The notes beneath the pieces are model-generated. The model had not been told where the DNA came from. It ran no database searches and saw nothing but the letters and a program-made list of their open reading frames with translations. Shown here one piece after another: positions 27,281 through 62,037 of a stretch of DNA of 64,000 nt. The translations under genes and the position numbers were made by a program. Origin of the DNA: Halobacillus litoralis (lineage in GTDB: Bacteria > Bacillota > Bacilli > Bacillales > Halobacillaceae); assembly GCF_020524085.2 (NCBI RefSeq), contig NZ_CP129016.1, positions 3,280,001 to 3,344,000 of the forward strand. The letters run 5' to 3'. Every line of letters begins with the position of its first letter. The first letter of the stretch is position 1.

Positions 27281-27314
27281 ATACATAGGGAAAGGAACAT
27301 AGACGTTCCATCCC

Positions 27315-27379
27315 TTGTAGACGAGCTATTTCCGGTAGCTGGTAGAAACGTTCAGGCCGTATTCCTGAACTTATACAAG
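27315..27379 (-). promoter_or_regulatory. Purine riboswitch aptamer, guanine class
   Basis: Minus-strand P1 CTTGTA/TACAAG; P2 GTTCAG/CTGAAC with loop GAATACGGC; the conserved joint TTTCTACC; P3 AGCTA/TAGCT with loop CCGGAAA. By alignment to the xpt aptamer the base matching position 74 is C (GTCTA after P3), which specifies guanine or hypoxanthine and not adenine. Confidence 0.93.
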
Positions 27380-27480
27380 GTGCTGCTGTTTTGAATTATA
27401 GGGAGAATCATAACAATCCAATGGAGAAGGGTCAATAAGTTTAAAAAATGTTCGGGAATTCACTTTTTTCAGATATTTGA

Positions 27481-28314: not shown

Positions 28315-28354
28315 AAAAAACGGAAATCTCCTGTTATTCTCTCAGGAGATTTCC
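28315..28354 (-). terminator. Terminator of the LAP biosynthesis operon
   Basis: CGGAAATCTCCTG / CAGGAGATTTCCG, a 13-bp perfect stem with an 8-base loop; on the minus strand six T follow. It lies 30 bases after the sagB-like stop. Confidence 0.9.
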
Positions 28355-28384
28355 GCTTCCGCTACACGTGGCCAGGACGATAGA

Positions 28385-29938
28385 TTAGGTGTGCAGATTT
28401 CCAACTAGTGAGCTCTTCGGTTGGTAAAAGCCCATAGGGATTTGAATGAGTGTTGTTTCTTTGGATTTCTCCAACTGATAAATTCGATCACAAGCATCCC
28501 CGTCATACCCAAGCAGTGGATGACCGTTCATACCAAGTGCACTGGCTGTCAACAACAGCCTTTGAAGGAGCATGCCTGCTTCCATCTGCTGAATCCGGTA
28601 TCCCCTGTACCCGAGTTCTTTTTTATAGTGGGCCCGTTCGCCGGCGATATGAAGACAGATCGGCACTTGATGGAGATTGACGTTATCGACCTTCATCGCC
28701 TGCTGCAACGGGAGACGGAAGTCCCCTTGGGCGATTTCGGTCAATGAATGACTGTTTGCATCATAGCGGTAAGCGCCGTCAGGGAATCCTTCCACCCCAT
28801 GAAAACAACCATAGATCGCCAAAGAGGATCGGCCGTCTTCGGCATAGAGGTCCGTATGGGATGGTTTGATTGTCTCTTTCAAAAGCAAAGCGAGCTGTTT
28901 TAAAGGAATGCTCCGGTTCACAAAATTCAGTTCTGGTGAATGCCTCTTACGGCACGCGTCAGCCAGGTTGTAGACCAATGGCTCAATTTCCGGCAAAGAG
29001 TGGGTCGGATTCATAATCCAATCCGGCTCTTTGGGTTTAACAAGCCCGAATTGAGCAGGCGAATTAAACATGGCCTGTTGATTGATTCTTTTAATGTATG
29101 GGAAATCAAGGACGTTTATGGAACGTTGATAGTGGCTGGTTTTGATTTCTGGAATGTCTCTGCTCCATTGTGAAGAAGACAGGTTTCCTGTTTTATTTTT
29201 TATAAAAGAATTATCGCTTTCTGCAAACGGGACAACTGCGTAGGTACTCTCCTCCCCCTCATCCAATCCAAGCAGATGATTGATCGGACGGTCGAGGAAT
29301 TGAAAATGGATCTTTATTGAAAACCGGGCACGTGAACTTAATTCCTGCCATTGACCGAGGAGCGCTCCTGCATCAAGGCCTTGCAGACGATAGGCGAAGT
29401 GGTTGTATTTGAAAAAGTTTTTCCAAAACATCGTCGTCACGAATAGAATTCCCTGCGCTTTAGATACATCGCAGCGACCGCCAAGTGCTTCAGTCAGAAA
29501 AGAATCGACATTCCCCTCTCGAATCAAATGCAGACGGTGGTGAGCAGCATCATAATGGTAGATGCCGTATGGAACGTCCTCCATTTTTAAATAGATATAC
29601 ACTTCACTCGGATACAAGCCACCACCTGAAGGGACAAAGCGGCGGAACGCTTGGATGGTTTCGACACCGGCCCCGTTTGTCAGCGGCATTATGGTTTCAC
29701 TGTATCCTGTCTGTCCGTAAGCATACCAGAGTAAATGACTGAGCCTCTTGAGTCCAGTCGTTGTATCCAAGGACGATTCGTTTAACGAAGACGGAAGATC
29801 ACCGTCGAGCGGAAACTCCTTTAGATGCTGATAAAGTTTAAAAGGAAGCGGAGCGTCATCCCAAGCGGGTTTCCAATCCGAAGGAATGACCTGCTCCGAT
29901 TGAAATTGCAATTGATGTAGGAACCGGTCAAGATCCAT
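28385..29938 (-). CDS. SagB-type LAP dehydrogenase with two nitroreductase-like halves
   Basis: FMN enzyme that oxidises azolines to azoles in thiazole/oxazole-modified peptides. 517 residues in two related halves: the first with RRFVPSGGGLYPSEVYIY and GIYHYDAAHHRL, the second with SLAIYGCFHGVEGFPDGAYR and the flavin-side block EAGMLLQRLLLTASALGMNG. ATG 29938 has AGGAGG 6 bases upstream. It is 19 bases after the YcaO gene in the same operon. The second half has weaker binding residues, so only one may be catalytic. Confidence 0.88.
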   Translation of the reverse strand: MDLDRFLHQLQFQSEQVIPSDWKPAWDDAPLPFKLYQHLKEFPLDGDLPSSLNESSLDTTTGLKRLSHLLWYAYGQTGYSETIMPLTNGAGVETIQAFRRFVPSGGGLYPSEVYIYLKMEDVPYGIYHYDAAHHRLHLIREGNVDSFLTEALGGRCDVSKAQGILFVTTMFWKNFFKYNHFAYRLQGLDAGALLGQWQELSSRARFSIKIHFQFLDRPINHLLGLDEGEESTYAVVPFAESDNSFIKNKTGNLSSSQWSRDIPEIKTSHYQRSINVLDFPYIKRINQQAMFNSPAQFGLVKPKEPDWIMNPTHSLPEIEPLVYNLADACRKRHSPELNFVNRSIPLKQLALLLKETIKPSHTDLYAEDGRSSLAIYGCFHGVEGFPDGAYRYDANSHSLTEIAQGDFRLPLQQAMKVDNVNLHQVPICLHIAGERAHYKKELGYRGYRIQQMEAGMLLQRLLLTASALGMNGHPLLGYDGDACDRIYQLEKSKETTLIQIPMGFYQPKSSLVGNLHT

Positions 29939-29957
29939 CACACGCCTCCTTCTGCCA

Positions 29958-31904
29958 TTAAGGGAATGGATGCGGATAAGGGTTAAGTTCACCAGGGGTA
30001 AGGAGGTGGTCGGTATAACCGAGCTTCTTAGGAACTTCCAATACTCTGTTCAACCCCTCCAGACGTCTGAGGTGATGTCCGAAAGTCATCGGCAGCATCC
30101 CAGGGATCAACACTTTGACGCAATGCAGTCCGTTCCTTTCCAATTCACCCGCTGTCTGGTCTACAACGATGACATCCAGGTTCAATTTCTGAAAAACTTC
30201 CAGAATGTCTTTTACATCCTCTGTGAGGTCTGAATGAGCTCCTTCATAGTGAAAAGCTTCTTCAAAAGTCTGGAGAGGACCGTTCTGATTCAACAAAAAC
30301 CCGAGACGTTCTTCCGCTTCCAGGAGTCCGTACACCATCCCGTGATCATCCATTTTTTTCACGAGGAAAGAATCGTGAAGCATCTTTGTATAGCTCTCTT
30401 TGTTCTTCTTGAACTCTTTGTTCAACGGTGCGATCATGCCGACACTTTCAAATACCGCACTTTTCACAGCTTTTACGGGATCCAGATGGGCGCCCGCGGC
30501 ACAGATCAGATTCAACTCACCGGAGTCCGCTTTCCTTTTCTTGATGACGGTCAGGATACAAGGGATGCCGTGTTCCATCGTCGCATTATACAAATACAGA
30601 TCATAGCCTGCGATCTCTTTCATACGCTCGATCATCAAAAGCAATTCTTGGTCACCGGAAGAGTACGGGTCTATACGTGGCAGCGGAAGTTCTGCATACC
30701 AGGTCAAAAGAAAAGAATCACGTTCCAGCACTTCCATCATGCCGTGGAAAATCGCCTCTTCCCTGCTTCCACCGATCGCGCATCCGTTGGAGGTTTCAAA
30801 AATATACCCGCCTCCACAACCCATGCTGTAATAGGCAAGCCTTTCCGGCACTAAGATCGGCTTTTCCTGTAATAATGAATACCCCCACACCCAGTTCATT
30901 TTTTTATCGGGATGATAAGGAGTGAAAGGAAAATCTTTTTTTGCATACTGTTCATCTGAATGAACGCCGACATCCAGAGGATTAAGCGCTGAACGGAGGT
31001 TGCTGTAACTGTTATACACACGCGTTCTTTTCCGTTTCGGATCCATCCCGCAGAACCGTTCCAGCCCTTCCAGGATGGCAGTCCTCTCACTGGCAGCATA
31101 GGAATTCGTTCTCCCGGCCGATCCTTCATTGCCGCTCATAAGCGGGAGATTCACAATCACATCCGCGAACGGGGTTTCAAAATCAATCATTTTATGATTG
31201 AGGATCCCTGTACGCGGTTCGAGGTAATCTTTGGTCAGGAATGTGCTCAAATCCTCCATTGACCTTGTGCGGTAACTGCCTTCACTTATTTTCATACTTG
31301 GCTGCAGGGGCACCTCTGCAAGGTGAGAAGAATCTTCGACAATCTTCCTGCAATACCTGCACTGGGAATCTGGCAAAAAGCGATGACGTGAGCTTTCCAA
31401 TGTCCTCATGTTGATCAGGTGGACGGCTTGATCTGTCAAGACGGATTTCCCTTCAATCCAACGCTGAACCTCATTTTTTATAAAGGAAGTCATCTGCAGG
31501 ATCCCGCTTACAGAAACCCATTCATCCTTTCTTGCCTGCGTATCCTCCGTAAGTTTCTGTTGAATGGTCCAAAGATCCTCACGATCGCCTGCTGTCATGA
31601 CTCTTCTCAAATCCGCACACTGAGAACATCCCTCACCCCCGGGGCGGACGAAAGGGCCGATGACTCCTTCCCCGAATGCTACAAACCCTCTCAACCAATC
31701 GACTCCATGATCCCGGGCGATCTTTTCTCCCATAATTGAGATTGCCGGGTTCCAACCGTCCTCTAGTACAAGAAGTAAATCCGTGGTGTCCGGTACCGTT
31801 TTTTCAAAACTTGGAATACATGTCACTTCATAATGAGTCTTCAGTTCCTTCACTACACAATCAAGCAGAACGCCTTCCCCTACGGCCGTTATGAAAATGC
31901 TCAT
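29958..31904 (-). CDS. YcaO-type cyclodehydratase of the LAP cluster (SagD-like, fused N-terminal domain)
   Basis: ATP-dependent enzyme that turns Cys (and Ser/Thr) of the precursor into azolines. 648 residues. The N-terminal part resembles the cyclodehydratase docking/E1-like domain and has CSQCADL and CRYCRKI cysteine pairs, probably zinc. The YcaO domain follows, with ASERTAILEGLERFCG, GGSREEAIFHGMMEVLERDS and ending in NPYPHPFP, the PxPxPxP tail required for activity in this family. ATG 31904 overlaps the stop of the E1-like gene (ATGA), so translation is coupled. Confidence 0.92.
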   Translation of the reverse strand: MSIFITAVGEGVLLDCVVKELKTHYEVTCIPSFEKTVPDTTDLLLVLEDGWNPAISIMGEKIARDHGVDWLRGFVAFGEGVIGPFVRPGGEGCSQCADLRRVMTAGDREDLWTIQQKLTEDTQARKDEWVSVSGILQMTSFIKNEVQRWIEGKSVLTDQAVHLINMRTLESSRHRFLPDSQCRYCRKIVEDSSHLAEVPLQPSMKISEGSYRTRSMEDLSTFLTKDYLEPRTGILNHKMIDFETPFADVIVNLPLMSGNEGSAGRTNSYAASERTAILEGLERFCGMDPKRKRTRVYNSYSNLRSALNPLDVGVHSDEQYAKKDFPFTPYHPDKKMNWVWGYSLLQEKPILVPERLAYYSMGCGGGYIFETSNGCAIGGSREEAIFHGMMEVLERDSFLLTWYAELPLPRIDPYSSGDQELLLMIERMKEIAGYDLYLYNATMEHGIPCILTVIKKRKADSGELNLICAAGAHLDPVKAVKSAVFESVGMIAPLNKEFKKNKESYTKMLHDSFLVKKMDDHGMVYGLLEAEERLGFLLNQNGPLQTFEEAFHYEGAHSDLTEDVKDILEVFQKLNLDVIVVDQTAGELERNGLHCVKVLIPGMLPMTFGHHLRRLEGLNRVLEVPKKLGYTDHLLTPGELNPYPHPFP

Positions 31905-33830
31905 ACACTGTCCCCCCTTTCCAACCATACCCCGCAGAGATCGATCACCCCGTCCTCCTCGAAAGGATCCATGGAAATTTTGACAAAGGAAGGTTTGTGC
32001 TGTCCTTTTTCCAACTGCGTGACTGCACCACGAAGGACTTCTTTGTTATCTTTCGCTTCCATAGAAGGGAGGTCAAAAGATGCCATCGATTCTTTTTCAA
32101 AGTATAGCTGGGAGCAGGAACGGAAGGAATAAGCAGTTGGAAGGCCCTCCATTTGCTTCTCCATGAGGAGGAGAAATAATGCCTGGCGGACGGCCAGTGT
32201 TTGATGCAGCGCAACCGTCCCCCTCCATTTGCTATGGGGCGTTTTCACCCACACCATAGGGAAGCCGAAACCATCTTCTGAAATCGCAAGCTCCGGTTCC
32301 TTATCCATCGTCTTGAGAACCTGCCAATAATAACGGCAATCCTCATCTTCGATCGTTCTTAAAGTGAATTTCCTTGCTTTCTTGGCTTTGTGATGGTCCT
32401 CGGTCCATACGTTTTCAACAGCTTTTTGCAATGCTCTGAGGCTAGATTCGGTGTAACTTTCCCCGGCACCAATGTGAAAGGCGTCATCAGGAAATCTCCT
32501 TGGTGACTCCGCATGAGGGACGAGACTTTGTAATATTTCACCTTCCAGTGTTTTCGCATAAGCCTCCACCCCCATGAAACCTGCTTCCCGCCTTGCCTCT
32601 TCATGGGTTTTCCCTCCGGCAATGATCTCAGGTGTCAATTTCTGTGACCGGGCATGAACCACTTGAACGCCGCATAGGGAAAGAGGGAGCTGTTCCAGGT
32701 CGCCTTCTTCCCATTGATAAAAGATCCCTAGAGGGCTTGCTGTTAACTCACCAAAATAGTAAAGCCATTCGTTCTGGTCTTTTACGTGATTCAAACTTCC
32801 CTCTTCAATGTTCATTTTTTCCGTTGAAATGTTCTGTGTAGCCAGCGGATGCGGTTTAAAAGGATGCCATCTTCCCTCAAGGGTTTCCATGTTCATCAGA
32901 TAGATGTGTTTGGTCTGATGAGGCTCCTGGACACCAGTCATCTTCTTAAAGAGTTCAAATACCATAACCGTTGAAAGCATCGACTGAGCGGGTCTCGACG
33001 CTATGAAGGATGGGGATTCGCTCTTCATATGCTCGGGCAGGCTATGCCAGGCTGACTGCCAATCTTTTTCTGAAGTTTCATTTATATAAGGACCTGCCAT
33101 TCCATAAGCTCCTAGAACGACAGCCGGTAGGAAGTCTTTCTTCTTTTCCAGGCATCGCTTCATGATGCTCTCAAGTTCATCCACTTTTCCTTCTTGGGAT
33201 ACGTATAGAACAGCATCATAAGAATCGATTTCATCTGCCCAGGAAAAAGGCTCCTTTTCAAAAAAAAATATTCACCGCTGCCTCAGGATCCACTTTTCTG
33301 GCTGCCGTTTCTAATTCCGATAATCTGTACACGTTTGTCTTCTTGGGATCCGTGAGGCAGACGGAAACATTCGCCAACCCAGCTTGGAGCATGGCGGATA
33401 CGAGCCCGGTCACCATCGTCCCTTCGCCAATCGCCATCACTTTTTTTTGACGAAACCGCTGGAAGTGATAAGCAGGGGAATCAACGAAACTTTCTAAGTA
33501 TTCGATTTGAGAGGCGAACGCTTCCACCACCTGCTCTTTCAATTGATGAGGCCGTTCCTGACTGACATCTAAGAGAAACCCATTTTGATAAAGCGTGTCG
33601 GTAATTTCATAAAGCCGCTCGCGATAGGCATTCGGTAGACCGTCCGTCAGAATTTCCATCGTATGACTTCCGTTCAGCATAGGGATGAGCTTTTCAATCC
33701 ACTGCTGGATCATCGGGCCTTCCATACGGAAAGAACCCGCATTGTTCTTGAAGTAAACACGATCCGTCTCCGGCATAAAGAACGTGCCCTTTTTGACTTT
33801 CAAACACATGAAAGGTTGGACCTTTGTCAT
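31901..33830 (-). pseudogene. ThiF/E1-like thiazole bacteriocin maturation protein, split by a frameshift
   Basis: Two frames join into one protein of about 642 residues, the length of the putative thiazole-containing bacteriocin maturation family. The first (33830-33258) opens with MTKVQPFMCLKVKKGTFFMP behind AAGGAGG, contains the Rossmann-like MAIGEGTMVTGLVSAMLQ, and stops right after a nine-T run (A9 on plus, 33260-33268). With eight T the frame runs on as FEKEPFSWADEIDSYDAVLY into the second (ending 31901). So it is broken by one base, or uses slippage, or the base is an error. The second part alone has no good start. Confidence 0.85.
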
Positions 33831-33912
33831 GACGTTCCTCCTTGCCCACTAAGGTGACTTCCTAACCGATTTTATGTATTCCGACACGTAAGTTATGCGT
33901 GGACAACACTGA

Positions 33913-33945
33913 AGAACCCCTGTCGAAATATCCGACAGGGGTTCT
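33913..33945 (-). terminator. Attenuator hairpin between the LAP precursor and maturation genes
   Basis: AGAACCCCTGTCG / CGACAGGGGTTCT, a 13-bp perfect stem with a 7-base loop, 36 bases after the precursor stop. There is no T-run, so it may be an RNA-stabilising or partial stop hairpin that gives more precursor than enzyme mRNA. Confidence 0.7.
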
Positions 33946-33980
33946 CATTCTCGTTCATTATGTCTGTAAAGGTCGATGCA

Positions 33981-34277
33981 TCAGCGGCCCCCGCAGCGTC
34001 CGCAGCCGCCGCAACGGGCGCAGCCTCCACAACGAGCACAGCCTCCGCACCCTGCACAGCGGGCACAACCACCGCATCCCCCACAGCGGGCACAGCCTCC
34101 ACAACCGCCACATCCGAAGCAACTGAAACAGCCGAAACATCCTCCAAGTCCGAACCCAAGGCCGACACACAAACGCGCATCATTCGTATACGCTTCTGCC
34201 TGCTGACTCGGCACTAATTGTTGAGCATGAAATTCACCGACATCTAAGTTCTGAATTTGATTTTGAAATTCATTCAA
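33981..34277 (-). CDS. LAP precursor peptide, heterocycloanthracin/sonorensin-like
   Basis: 98 residues. The leader (1-36) starts [20 protein letters not shown] and resembles heterocycloanthracin leaders. The core begins at Cys37; from Cys47 to Cys95 there is a cysteine every third residue without exception (17 of them), with the fillers mainly GG and AR, 18 Cys in all. TTG start at 34277 with GGAGGGG 8 bases before; an earlier in-frame ATG at 34322 has no site. The cysteines are the expected targets of the YcaO enzyme. Other reading frames over the same DNA are by-products of the 9-base repeats. Confidence 0.92.
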
Positions 34278-34631
34278 CTTGTTTTCCCCTCCATAGTTCC
34301 AGTCTTTGTGCGCAAAAAACACAAAGCACTACGTTCACAACAACGTATGATGAAAGCCTATGGATTGTTACTGTTGAGGGAAGGAGAAGGACAATGGTGT
34401 CACAAAAGAAAATCCTTTATTTTTGCAGACATTACATGATCTTCATGATTAAAAATAAAAATGAGAACGAAACATCCTGATCTTACCGCGATCGTTCTCC
34501 CCCTTCATCCTTTTTCTTTTTTTGCTCTGGTAAAGTTAAGTATTGATATTATTAGCAAAAGTAGAGGAACGGCCAAATTTTATTGTATTTCTTCTTTTTT
34601 TATATGAGCTTATTCAACTAACGCTCCCGAT
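34278..34631. other. Leader and upstream region of the LAP precursor
   Basis: Holds a leader hairpin on the minus strand (CTTTGTG/CACAAAG, 34304-34326), an inverted repeat TACGTT-6-AACGTA (34330-34347) that could be an operator, and a terminator-like GAGAACG/CGTTCTC hairpin (34463-34499) with ATTTTTATTTTT after it on the minus strand. A precursor promoter must lie here; TTGTCC with TAACAA 18 bases on is one weak candidate. No regulator gene or other gene seen. Confidence 0.4.
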
Positions 34632-60256: not shown

Positions 60257-60271
60257 ACCATCAAAAAAGCC

Positions 60272-60352
60272 GCCATCCCTACGCCAGTGCTAACTGACAG
60301 GTTCGAAGGGTCAGAACGAAATGTTCACTCTCAGCCGGAGGCTCCCCTTGAA
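60272..60352 (-). promoter_or_regulatory. TPP (THI-box) riboswitch aptamer
   Basis: Minus-strand CAAGGGGAGCC, GGCTGAGAGTGAAC, GACCCTTCGAACCTGTCAG, TTAGCACTGGCGTAGGGA. These match the conserved TPP aptamer parts GGGG..GCTGAGA..ACCCTT-GAACCTG..CTGGCGTAGGGA. Expected to switch off thiT when thiamine pyrophosphate is abundant. Confidence 0.96.
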
Positions 60353-60439
60353 GGCTTTATACCGTTTACTTTTCTTGATTTGTCTCTATTATAATAAACT
60401 TTTTACTAGATTACAAAACCTTTTCTATTTCCCGGGCAA

Positions 60440-61180
60440 TCATTTCGTGTTCGTGTACATTTGGAAAAATTCCAGCGTGCGCTCGATGATCATATCCTTA
60501 TCATAATCAAGTGTGGCCACATGGTAACTGTTTTCCAGATGGATGATCTCTTTATGTTCAGAAAACACCGATTCGAATATGACTTCTGAATTGTGAGGTG
60601 GAACGACGTGATCCTCATCCGATACGAAAATCATGATCGGGCAGTGGATTTCGTCAAGCCTGTCCTTCACTTTACCCATCAACGTGACGAGCTCCCCGAT
60701 CGATTTCACCGGCGTGCGGTCATACGCCAGTTCAACGGTTTCCGGATCCTTGATATCGGAACCGATCGCATCTATAAATCGTTCGTCCATTCCCTGACTA
60801 TTTTCAAGTGCTGGTATATCGATAGCTGCATTGATCGGAATGACGCCTTCAATATCCCGGTGTTCACTCGCCATATACAACGCAAGGGTTCCCCCCATCG
60901 ATAACCCGACGACAAATATTTTCGAACACCTTTCTTTCAACCAGGTGTAAGCTTCTTCTACGGATTGCACCCAGTCCATATGAGAGGTCGATTCCATGTC
61001 CTCTGGGGTCGTTCCGTGCCCTTTCAACCGCGGACAGCAGACGGTATAACCTGACCTTGCATACGCTTCGACTAATGGCTTCATGCTCTGTGTTGTCCCG
61101 GTAAACCCGTGAGAGACGAGAATGCCGACTTCATTACCCTCGAAGCGCATCTCCTCCGCTCCATGTATCACTTTTTCCAT
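60440..61180 (-). CDS. Carboxylesterase (alpha/beta hydrolase, Est30-like)
   Basis: 246 residues. Ser nucleophile in VVGLSMGGTLAL, Asp in VSDEDHVVPP, His in NSYHVATLD, and the oxyanion-side HGFTGTTQSMKPL. Matches the Est30-type carboxylesterases of Geobacillus and Bacillus that act on short acyl esters. Its start overlaps the end of the short-chain dehydrogenase gene by 47 bases, suggesting cotranscription. AAAGGAG is upstream of the ATG. Confidence 0.92.
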   Translation of the reverse strand: MEKVIHGAEEMRFEGNEVGILVSHGFTGTTQSMKPLVEAYARSGYTVCCPRLKGHGTTPEDMESTSHMDWVQSVEEAYTWLKERCSKIFVVGLSMGGTLALYMASEHRDIEGVIPINAAIDIPALENSQGMDERFIDAIGSDIKDPETVELAYDRTPVKSIGELVTLMGKVKDRLDEIHCPIMIFVSDEDHVVPPHNSEVIFESVFSEHKEIIHLENSYHVATLDYDKDMIIERTLEFFQMYTNTK

Positions 61181-62037
61181 TCAACCCCACTCCTTTGGCT
61201 TTCTCTTTTCCTAGAATTTTTTGTAACACCGTTTTTTCCAGCCACTTCCACGGCAGTAAACGTTTGAACCACACATTCGCCCGCACTCCGGCACCGATGG
61301 GATAGCGGAGTTTCACGAGCGTTTCTTTTTCCATCAGTCCGGTCATCAGATCAGAAACGTCCTGAGGGTTGCCGTGTGATTCACTGTTCAAAGCATTCCA
61401 CAACCCTTTTATGTAATCGGCGTAAGGAGATTCAGGGTCCTGGACTTCTTCCGGCATTTCAAGTCCTGTCGACCAAATATTTGTCTGATAAGAGCCTGGC
61501 TCGATCAGCGCGACATCAATCCCGAACGGTTTCACTTCGAAACGGAGACTTTCCGATAATCCCTCCAATGCGTGTTTGGATGAAACATAAGCTGATAAGC
61601 CCTGGAAAACCGATCAATCCGCTCACACTGCTGACATTTAAAATCTTCCCACTTCCCTGGGCACGCATCAGTGGCAGAACCGCTTTCGTAACGGCAATCA
61701 CTCCAAAGACATTCGTATCAAACTGCTTACGGTATGTTTCAAGCGGCACCTGTTCAAGAAATCCACCGACCGCATAGCCCGCGTTATTCACGAGGACATC
61801 CAGGCGTTCCAGCGTATTCACTTTCTTTGAAAAACGCGCGATGGACTTTTCATCTGTCACATCCAAAGGCCACACTTCGATGCGGTTGCGTACTTCCTCA
61901 TCAAGTGTTTGGTAGGCGGCTGCCTTTTGTACATTTCTCATCGTGGCGATGACACGAAATCCTTTTTCGGCACATTTCACTGCTGTATGGAAACCGAATC
62001 CACTGGATGCGCCTGTAATGAGTACGGTTTGTTTCAT
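61134..62037 (-). pseudogene. Short-chain dehydrogenase/reductase, split by a frameshift
   Basis: Two frames join into one SDR of about 300 residues. The first (from 62037) has LITGASSGFGFHTA, VNNAGYAVGGFLE and NVSSVSGLIGFPGL. The catalytic Tyr-Lys then falls in the second frame: SAYVSSKHALEGLSE, and it runs to 61134. One extra base in the string CTTATCAGC (minus, near 61594-61605) breaks the frame. Good start: GGGGGAG before the ATG. Without the base it would be intact, so this may be recent decay or a sequence error. Confidence 0.85.

Follow-up and report, generated by a model that had tools for sequence, protein, structure and literature searches.

At which stage in the life of the cell is the peptide of a heterocycloanthracin (HCA)/sonorensin-type cluster made, and how does it leave? 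The question is raised by a locus in the genome of Halobacillus litoralis, lying in a window (the whole stretch of DNA that was analysed) of 64,000 nucleotides, positions 3,280,001 to 3,344,000 of contig NZ_CP129016.1, assembly GCF_020524085.2; coordinates below are those of the window unless another contig is named. An earlier note, made from the letters of the DNA, had described a biosynthetic cluster here, and the present analysis followed up its gene assignments, upstream sequences, relatives and distribution.

Gene content of the cluster

By its gene sequences the stretch 34277-28315 on the minus strand is an HCA/sonorensin-type LAP cluster, a kind of locus already known. It contains, in order, a precursor gene, an F-protein (ocin-ThiF) gene, a gene for a fused YcaO cyclodehydratase and a tandem SagB gene:

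33981-34277, minus strand: HCA precursor, 98 aa, TTG start at 34277, 18 Cys in CxxC repeats, TIGR03601
33258-33830, minus strand: F protein (ocin-ThiF-like, leader-binding), N-terminal piece, 190 aa; TIGR03693, 208 bits, model positions 1-183
31901-33184, minus strand: F protein, C-terminal piece in another frame, 427 aa; TIGR03693, 255 bits, model positions 218-633
29958-31904, minus strand: fused C-D cyclodehydratase (YcaO); TIGR03604, TIGR03882, PF02624
28385-29938, minus strand: tandem SagB-type FMN dehydrogenase, 517 aa; TIGR03605

The strand, gene order and coordinates given in the earlier note all hold, as does the NPYPHPFP C-terminus of the YcaO protein; the precursor frame of 98 aa begins with TTG at 34277. 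The class that it proposed is confirmed by the NCBIfam search that it had suggested, with scores that exclude chance. The YcaO protein matches both TIGR03604 (386 bits, cut-off 219, residues 272-656) and TIGR03882 (135 bits, cut-off 36.9, residues 77-243); SagB matches TIGR03605 (202 bits, cut-off 78.4) over two stretches, in keeping with the tandem architecture described earlier, and TIGR03693 is matched by both pieces of the F protein, while TIGR03603 gave no match in this search of the cluster proteins. The YcaO and SagB proteins thus fall in the expected families, and homologous clusters are present in related genomes. The precursor scores 34.7 bits against TIGR03601 (cut-off 35) and covers positions 1-86 of the 88 in the model; the precursors of two near relatives also lie slightly under the cut-off (32.4 and 32.5). 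Its anatomy suits the family, all 18 Cys being located past the leader. The ATG of the YcaO gene at 31904 overlaps the stop codon of the F gene (ATGA), the protein is the sole YcaO match genome-wide, and SagB, which most likely starts at ATG 29938, resembles the tandem protein 3eo7. For all four genes, with the two F pieces taken separately, dN/dS against Halobacillus relatives is 0.07-0.29 wherever it is computable.

The HCA clusters of the Bacillus cereus group have the same parts, i.e. a precursor with leader and CxxC repeats, an F protein, a fused cyclodehydratase and a B protein, and the last three are the only genes found in every HCA cluster (PMC4603692). Differences are that the precursor adjoins the enzymes here but lies about 1.27 Mb away in the HCA strain of PMC2674419, that the neighbours scanned here include no identified gene for a methyltransferase, a succinyltransferase or a 2-oxoglutarate dehydrogenase, and that the F gene is split in the present assembly. 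Sonorensin, from Bacillus sonorensis MT93, likewise has a predicted precursor of the HCA subfamily (PMC4544038).

Candidate promoter of the precursor gene

Upstream of the precursor gene lies a conserved promoter-like sequence that is absent from the earlier note. When five Halobacillus loci are aligned, this block is far more conserved than the sequence further upstream, and it recurs in other genera, laid out as a GerE-type box (AAATAGGCnnTT), then GTAACA, 16 nt and CATAnnTTGTTG; the family-wide form of the promoter is AACA-N16-CATANNNT. The consensus for sigma-K is mACm, about 16 nt and CATAnnnTA, and that for GerE is RWWTRGGYnnYY, with the box RWWTRGGYNNYY. The elements of the window, including those within and after the operon, are as follows:

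34342-34369, minus strand: sigma-K-type promoter of the precursor; AACA (34369-34366), 16 nt, CATACGTT (34349-34342)
34352-34363, minus strand: GerE-like box CCATAGGCTTTC, matching at 8 of the 10 defined positions and lying, in this clade, within the spacer of the promoter
33913-33945, minus strand: strong hairpin between the precursor and F genes, 13-pair stem, fold z -5.1
33869-33898, minus strand: a further conserved element, sigma-E-like, ahead of the F gene; GCATAAC N15 CATAAAAT
28315-28354, minus strand: hairpin and T run after SagB, an intrinsic terminator by sequence, fold z -6.2

The promoter in the window is a strict sigma-K match by scan (-35 and -10 elements, 16-nt spacing), and in most other genera the GerE box precedes the -35 by 20 nt. 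In B. thuringiensis, published promoters that read CAC-N16-CATATGTTA agree with the sigma-K consensus (PMC4750369). Sigma-A promoters were tried and rejected, the consensus matches being no commoner than in shuffles (6 against 7.7).

For a first set, 58 loci were examined for precursors; six gave none by rule (L007, L008, L009, L014, L016 and L083, of which L014 does have a precursor, left uncounted) and seven duplicates were removed, so that 45 upstream regions were kept. The strict sigma-K element is present in 32 of these 45 regions, as compared with an average of 0.2 over 20 rounds of shuffles and with none of the 306 further upstream regions used as background (0/240 from Halobacillus, 0/66 from elsewhere). 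The regions share ancestry, so that neither this count nor those below are independent. In 23 of the 32 strict regions the best GerE match begins exactly 20 nt before the -35, and a perfect GerE box occurs anywhere within 300 nt in 25/45 regions, as compared with 2.4 in shuffles. A fixed-geometry score, defined after inspection of these 45 regions, reaches at least 16 of 19 in 40/45 regions and in 2/306 of the background, where no region exceeds 16. The window and L002, L004, L005 and L006, all Halobacillus, fail this score because the GerE-like box is displaced or imperfect, although the sigma-K core is kept; L003 barely passes (16), by way of a poor GerE box. In all the sequence then gathered, repeated loci included, the strict composite occurred 19 times; a rule placed 15 of these ahead of a precursor, and inspection by eye did so for the remaining four.

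A held-out set of 53 regions from the order, scored unchanged, gave 36 strict matches, 42 by geometry and three by neither; its windows, of about 500 nt (four of 1001), are longer than the 300-nt background regions, and one locus (L189) repeats L006. When the order-level genomes are merged, either form is found in 94 of 96 genomes, covering 30/31 genus labels and 20/20 family labels (five named loci among the 96 carry no labels), and the strict match in 67/96; two of the 96 (G338 and G012) have neither the strict nor the geometry form. TIGR03601 matches were obtained in 93 genomes of the order, and upstream regions were examined in 86 of them, leaving out G216 (same coordinates as L134), G386 (set aside as a possible member of the B. 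cereus group) and the weak matches G314, G230, G298, G125 and G395. Outside the order, 34 of the 45 genomes with TIGR03601 matches supplied 40 regions, and 25 of these pass either test (9 strict, 22 geometry) while 15 fail both; the corresponding shuffles give 0.3/40 strict and 1.25/40 by geometry. As a positive control, the known sigma-K gene dpaA showed the element in 26/29 cases in a scan that ran from 250 nt before the frame to 90 nt within it (L118 was dropped from 30). On the wrong strand, the strict and geometry tests were passed by 1/93 and 4/93 regions, respectively. It is this signature, in almost every HCA-carrying genome examined in the order, that is the surprise and that leads to a developmental hypothesis.

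Distribution and genomic neighbourhood

Class-wide, among 299 genomes, dpaA (E up to 1e-60) is present in 190, and 49 of these have HCA precursors (TIGR03601, E up to 1e-6), as compared with none of the 109 that lack dpaA; the hypergeometric probability of this association is 1.6e-11, without phylogenetic correction. The order sample agrees: the precursor is found in 0/17 genomes with weak or missing dpaA as compared with 93/380 (p 0.0096, again without phylogenetic correction). In the genomes sampled, and with phylogeny uncorrected, HCA precursors are confined to endospore formers. The genome studied here has sigK. Its own precursor was missed, however, by the whole-genome TIGR03601 search, which returned nothing although the protein itself scores 34.7 bits; a lack of match in such genome searches is therefore no proof of absence and, with this genome counted as precursor-less, the distribution searches undercount.

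Among named relatives, H. aidingensis, two strains labelled H. litoralis and Halobacillus sp. Nhm2S1 stand closest (YcaO identity 82-86%). Ten of 21 other Halobacillus genomes carry the F gene, and the locus is thus patchy within the genus. ORFs of at least 90 aa around the cluster were grouped for the window together with 14 related loci that span several genera. The only genes that recur across genera are those for F (15/15), YcaO (15/15), SagB (14/15) and the precursors; other genes common to at least three loci are confined to the Halobacillus group or to the Pseudalkalibacillus group. In these 15 loci, therefore, the conserved neighbours include no gene for an exporter, a protease or immunity. 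The DUF2332 gene beside the cluster lies within 10 kb of it in four close relatives too (G002, G007, G008 and G011). The neighbours scanned comprise DinB, GNAT and DUF2332 proteins, together with a permease and an ABC ATPase; the remaining one, a small protein (36325-35870), has no Pfam match and does not recur in at least three of the 15 loci.

Proposed pathway and release of the product

These observations are best accommodated by a four-gene HCA-type LAP pathway in which the precursor would be transcribed by sigma-K late in the mother cell and the product would be laid on the spore or freed by lysis, a reading to which we assign a probability of about 0.75. Going by family membership, the F protein would bind the leader of the precursor, the fused YcaO protein would turn cysteines of the core into thiazolines by cyclodehydration, and oxidation by the tandem SagB would convert these to thiazoles. 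Conserved promoter anatomy suggests that sigma-K would transcribe the precursor in the mother cell at a late stage of sporulation, and that in most relatives GerE would sit directly upstream. The enzymes might conceivably be expressed through read-through of the internal hairpin, perhaps also from a separate earlier mother-cell promoter. The product would then build up in the mother cell and either reach the spore surface or be freed at lysis, which is the least certain step.

The earlier note had placed export and immunity elsewhere in the genome or with a general pump. With a promoter that suggests expression in the mother cell at a late stage of sporulation, both are probably unnecessary, because the product would be laid on the spore or freed by mother-cell lysis. 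Since lysis of the mother cell frees the spore (PMC517825), release without an exporter would be natural, attachment to the coat being the alternative. Two groups of known products offer partial parallels. Promoters of the form CAC/AGC-N16-CATA, several with GerE sites, have been demonstrated for bclA, bclB, bxpB and other genes in B. thuringiensis (PMC4750369). Such sigma-K/GerE coat and exosporium genes have promoters like that of the HCA precursor, but their products are structural or enzymatic spore proteins and not a modified peptide. The Cry proteins of B. thuringiensis are made by the mother cell during sporulation and freed by lysis without an exporter; they are large and unmodified, unlike the HCA peptide, and serve only as a precedent for release by lysis. 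In the literature searched, with subscription papers outside its scope, nothing linking HCA to sigma-K was found and the timing of HCA is not described.

For the HCA family at large, the product is probably a late mother-cell sporulation product, bound to the coat or released by lysis, rather than a secreted vegetative bacteriocin. The broader statement, that the whole HCA/sonorensin RiPP family consists of polythiazole peptides of endospore development, under sigma-K and GerE, which are made in a dying mother cell and either travel on the spore or are set free along with it, is favoured with somewhat more reserve than the reading of the present locus. If true, it would explain the lack of conserved exporter, protease and immunity genes, the scattered precursors and the restriction to spore formers. 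The group of F-protein-dependent LAPs is large (254 clusters; PMC4603692) and, if sigma-K and GerE do drive the precursor, may have been sought in the wrong growth phase and in the wrong fraction. The missing exporter and immunity genes would then no longer be a puzzle, and the modified peptide would become a candidate spore-surface component or cargo.

The usual reading of HCA is that of a conventional bacteriocin secreted in stationary phase, which would here need a general pump and a general protease and would make of the conserved element some other stationary-phase promoter. Both HCA and sonorensin are called bacteriocins in the literature (PMC2674419, PMC4544038). Sonorensin is reported to be an antibacterial isolated from Bacillus sonorensis, which fits secretion unless release follows lysis; the main text of that paper was found to contain no words beginning with 'spore' (PMC4544038). 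Moreover, a putative gene of the HCA/sonorensin family is upregulated in biofilm cells of B. cereus, but sporulation genes rise in the same study (PMC6962202), and this joint rise is compatible with, though not specific for, the sporulation reading. Secretion in stationary phase is nevertheless considered unlikely, given that the strict sigma-K fit of the precursor regions (32/45 and 36/53) is near the rate for dpaA (26/29), that the family is found in none of the 109 class-level genomes without dpaA, and that no exporter recurs beside the cluster.

The interrupted F gene

The present assembly shows the F gene broken. The E1-like maturation gene of the earlier note does belong to the F-protein family (TIGR03693), but it is found as two pieces rather than as a single open frame. 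The TIGR03693 model has 637 positions and a whole-protein cut-off of 562 bits, under which each piece falls because the gene is split; its family identity is not in doubt. The frame breaks at a run of T, and the gene is one open frame in 10/10 of the other Halobacillus genomes that carry it (21 others examined). In a survey of 264 kb of this genome against 200 kb of H. litoralis SL-4, nine frame breaks were flagged in the present assembly among 165 ORFs of the relative with an orthologue, three of them in the window, and five of the nine lie within 15 nt of a homopolymer of at least 6, as compared with 5.7% of random positions. The reverse comparison flagged eight among 168, six of them at places already flagged. 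Both F pieces are constrained against four close relatives (dN/dS 0.07-0.12 and 0.22-0.29). In addition, the dpaA gene of this genome (C1:2993988-2994845, minus strand) has one in-frame TGA, which could be either assembly noise or a real sporulation defect. Because of the homopolymer site, the other breaks in the assembly, the dN/dS values and the stop in dpaA, the most likely cause of the break in the F gene is an error in the assembly; the rival cause is a genuine mutation of recent date.

Should the F gene be truly frameshifted, the cluster would be dead in this strain, as HCA cyclodehydratases depend on the F protein (PMC4603692) and the gene does stand in two frames. This is quite unlikely, however, in view of the position of the break at a homopolymer, the nine flagged breaks among 165 orthologues, five of them near runs, the in-frame stop in dpaA and the low dN/dS of both pieces. 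Neither programmed slippage nor phase variation at this run of T is favoured, the gene being unbroken in 10/10 relatives of the genus and the assembly having breaks elsewhere too.

An MFS transporter gene (PF07690; 48649-49816, minus strand) stands in two frames at a T run relative to H. litoralis SL-4. A gene for a short-chain dehydrogenase (61134-62037, minus strand), whose first piece matches PF00106, is also divided between two frames relative to that strain. A DinB-family paralogue elsewhere in the genome (C1:2727949-2728409, plus strand) gives three separate matches and is perhaps also a broken gene. The N-terminal F piece (33261-33830, minus strand) has a weak Pfam match to Methyltransf_16 (22.2 bits, cut-off 21) that overlaps the F-model region and probably reflects fold resemblance.

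Nature of the conserved block

The block upstream of the precursor might be read as an RNA element or a shared ancestral leader instead of a promoter, since its distance to the start codon varies from about 70 to 250 nt and the bases right after the -10 (TTGTTGnGGAgag) are likewise conserved. On the other hand, the spacer between AACA and CATA diverges in sequence, yet of the 34 regions matching with a spacer of 15-17 nt, 32 have one of 16 nt, and the GerE box keeps its 20 nt in 23/32; a diverged spacer of constant length, together with a fixed GerE distance, is the behaviour of a promoter. The element also persists on dispersed copies of the precursor: in G595 and G605 (L213, L217, L221, L228-L230), for each of which six separate HCA precursor matches are listed, the strict sigma-K element is kept by 3/4 and 2/2 of the precursors examined, respectively. 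An RNA element or ancestral leader is therefore held to be very unlikely. Three Pseudalkalibacillus loci and that of Bacillus sp. RAR_GA_16 showed no precursor within the sequence examined around the enzymes; precursors were located elsewhere in three of these four genomes, and all three carry AACA-N16-CATA, which is in none of the 700-nt stretches upstream of the four F genes. The element thus goes with the precursor.

A thiopeptide in place of a linear azole peptide is scarcely credible for this cluster, for although F proteins occur in thiopeptide clusters too (PMC4603692) and are common to both groups, the precursor has the repeated Cys/Gly make-up of TIGR03601 peptides and no dehydratase or cycloaddition enzyme is encoded among the neighbouring proteins scanned.

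Hairpins and other elements

The terminator that the earlier note had seen at the operon end is borne out by a strong hairpin followed by a T run (28354-28315); the pattern scan did not list it because the loop exceeds the limit of the scan. The hairpin between the precursor and F genes had not been recorded in the earlier note. It is conserved in five genomes, and its 13-pair stem was listed by the pattern scan on the plus strand only. It may attenuate transcription or protect the precursor mRNA, and a role as terminator is put forward tentatively because the minus strand has no T run.

In loci L002-L028 the conserved element that precedes the F gene by about 50-90 nt takes the form of two boxes, mCATA N15 CATA; GGACAAA or GAGACAAA stands between the boxes in many genera. 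A sigma-E-like score of at least 11/14 is reached by 12/28 upstream regions, as compared with about 6.5% of shuffles, the rows being non-independent. A sigma-E promoter before the F gene is suggestive only, since the enrichment is moderate despite the conserved fixed geometry.

The window also holds two riboswitches. A purine riboswitch (RF00167, 72 bits; 27298-27398, minus strand) lies upstream of a permease gene (PF00860; 27230-25938), and a TPP riboswitch (RF00059, 58 bits; 60259-60358, minus strand) lies upstream of a thiamine transporter gene (PF09515; 60245-59604).
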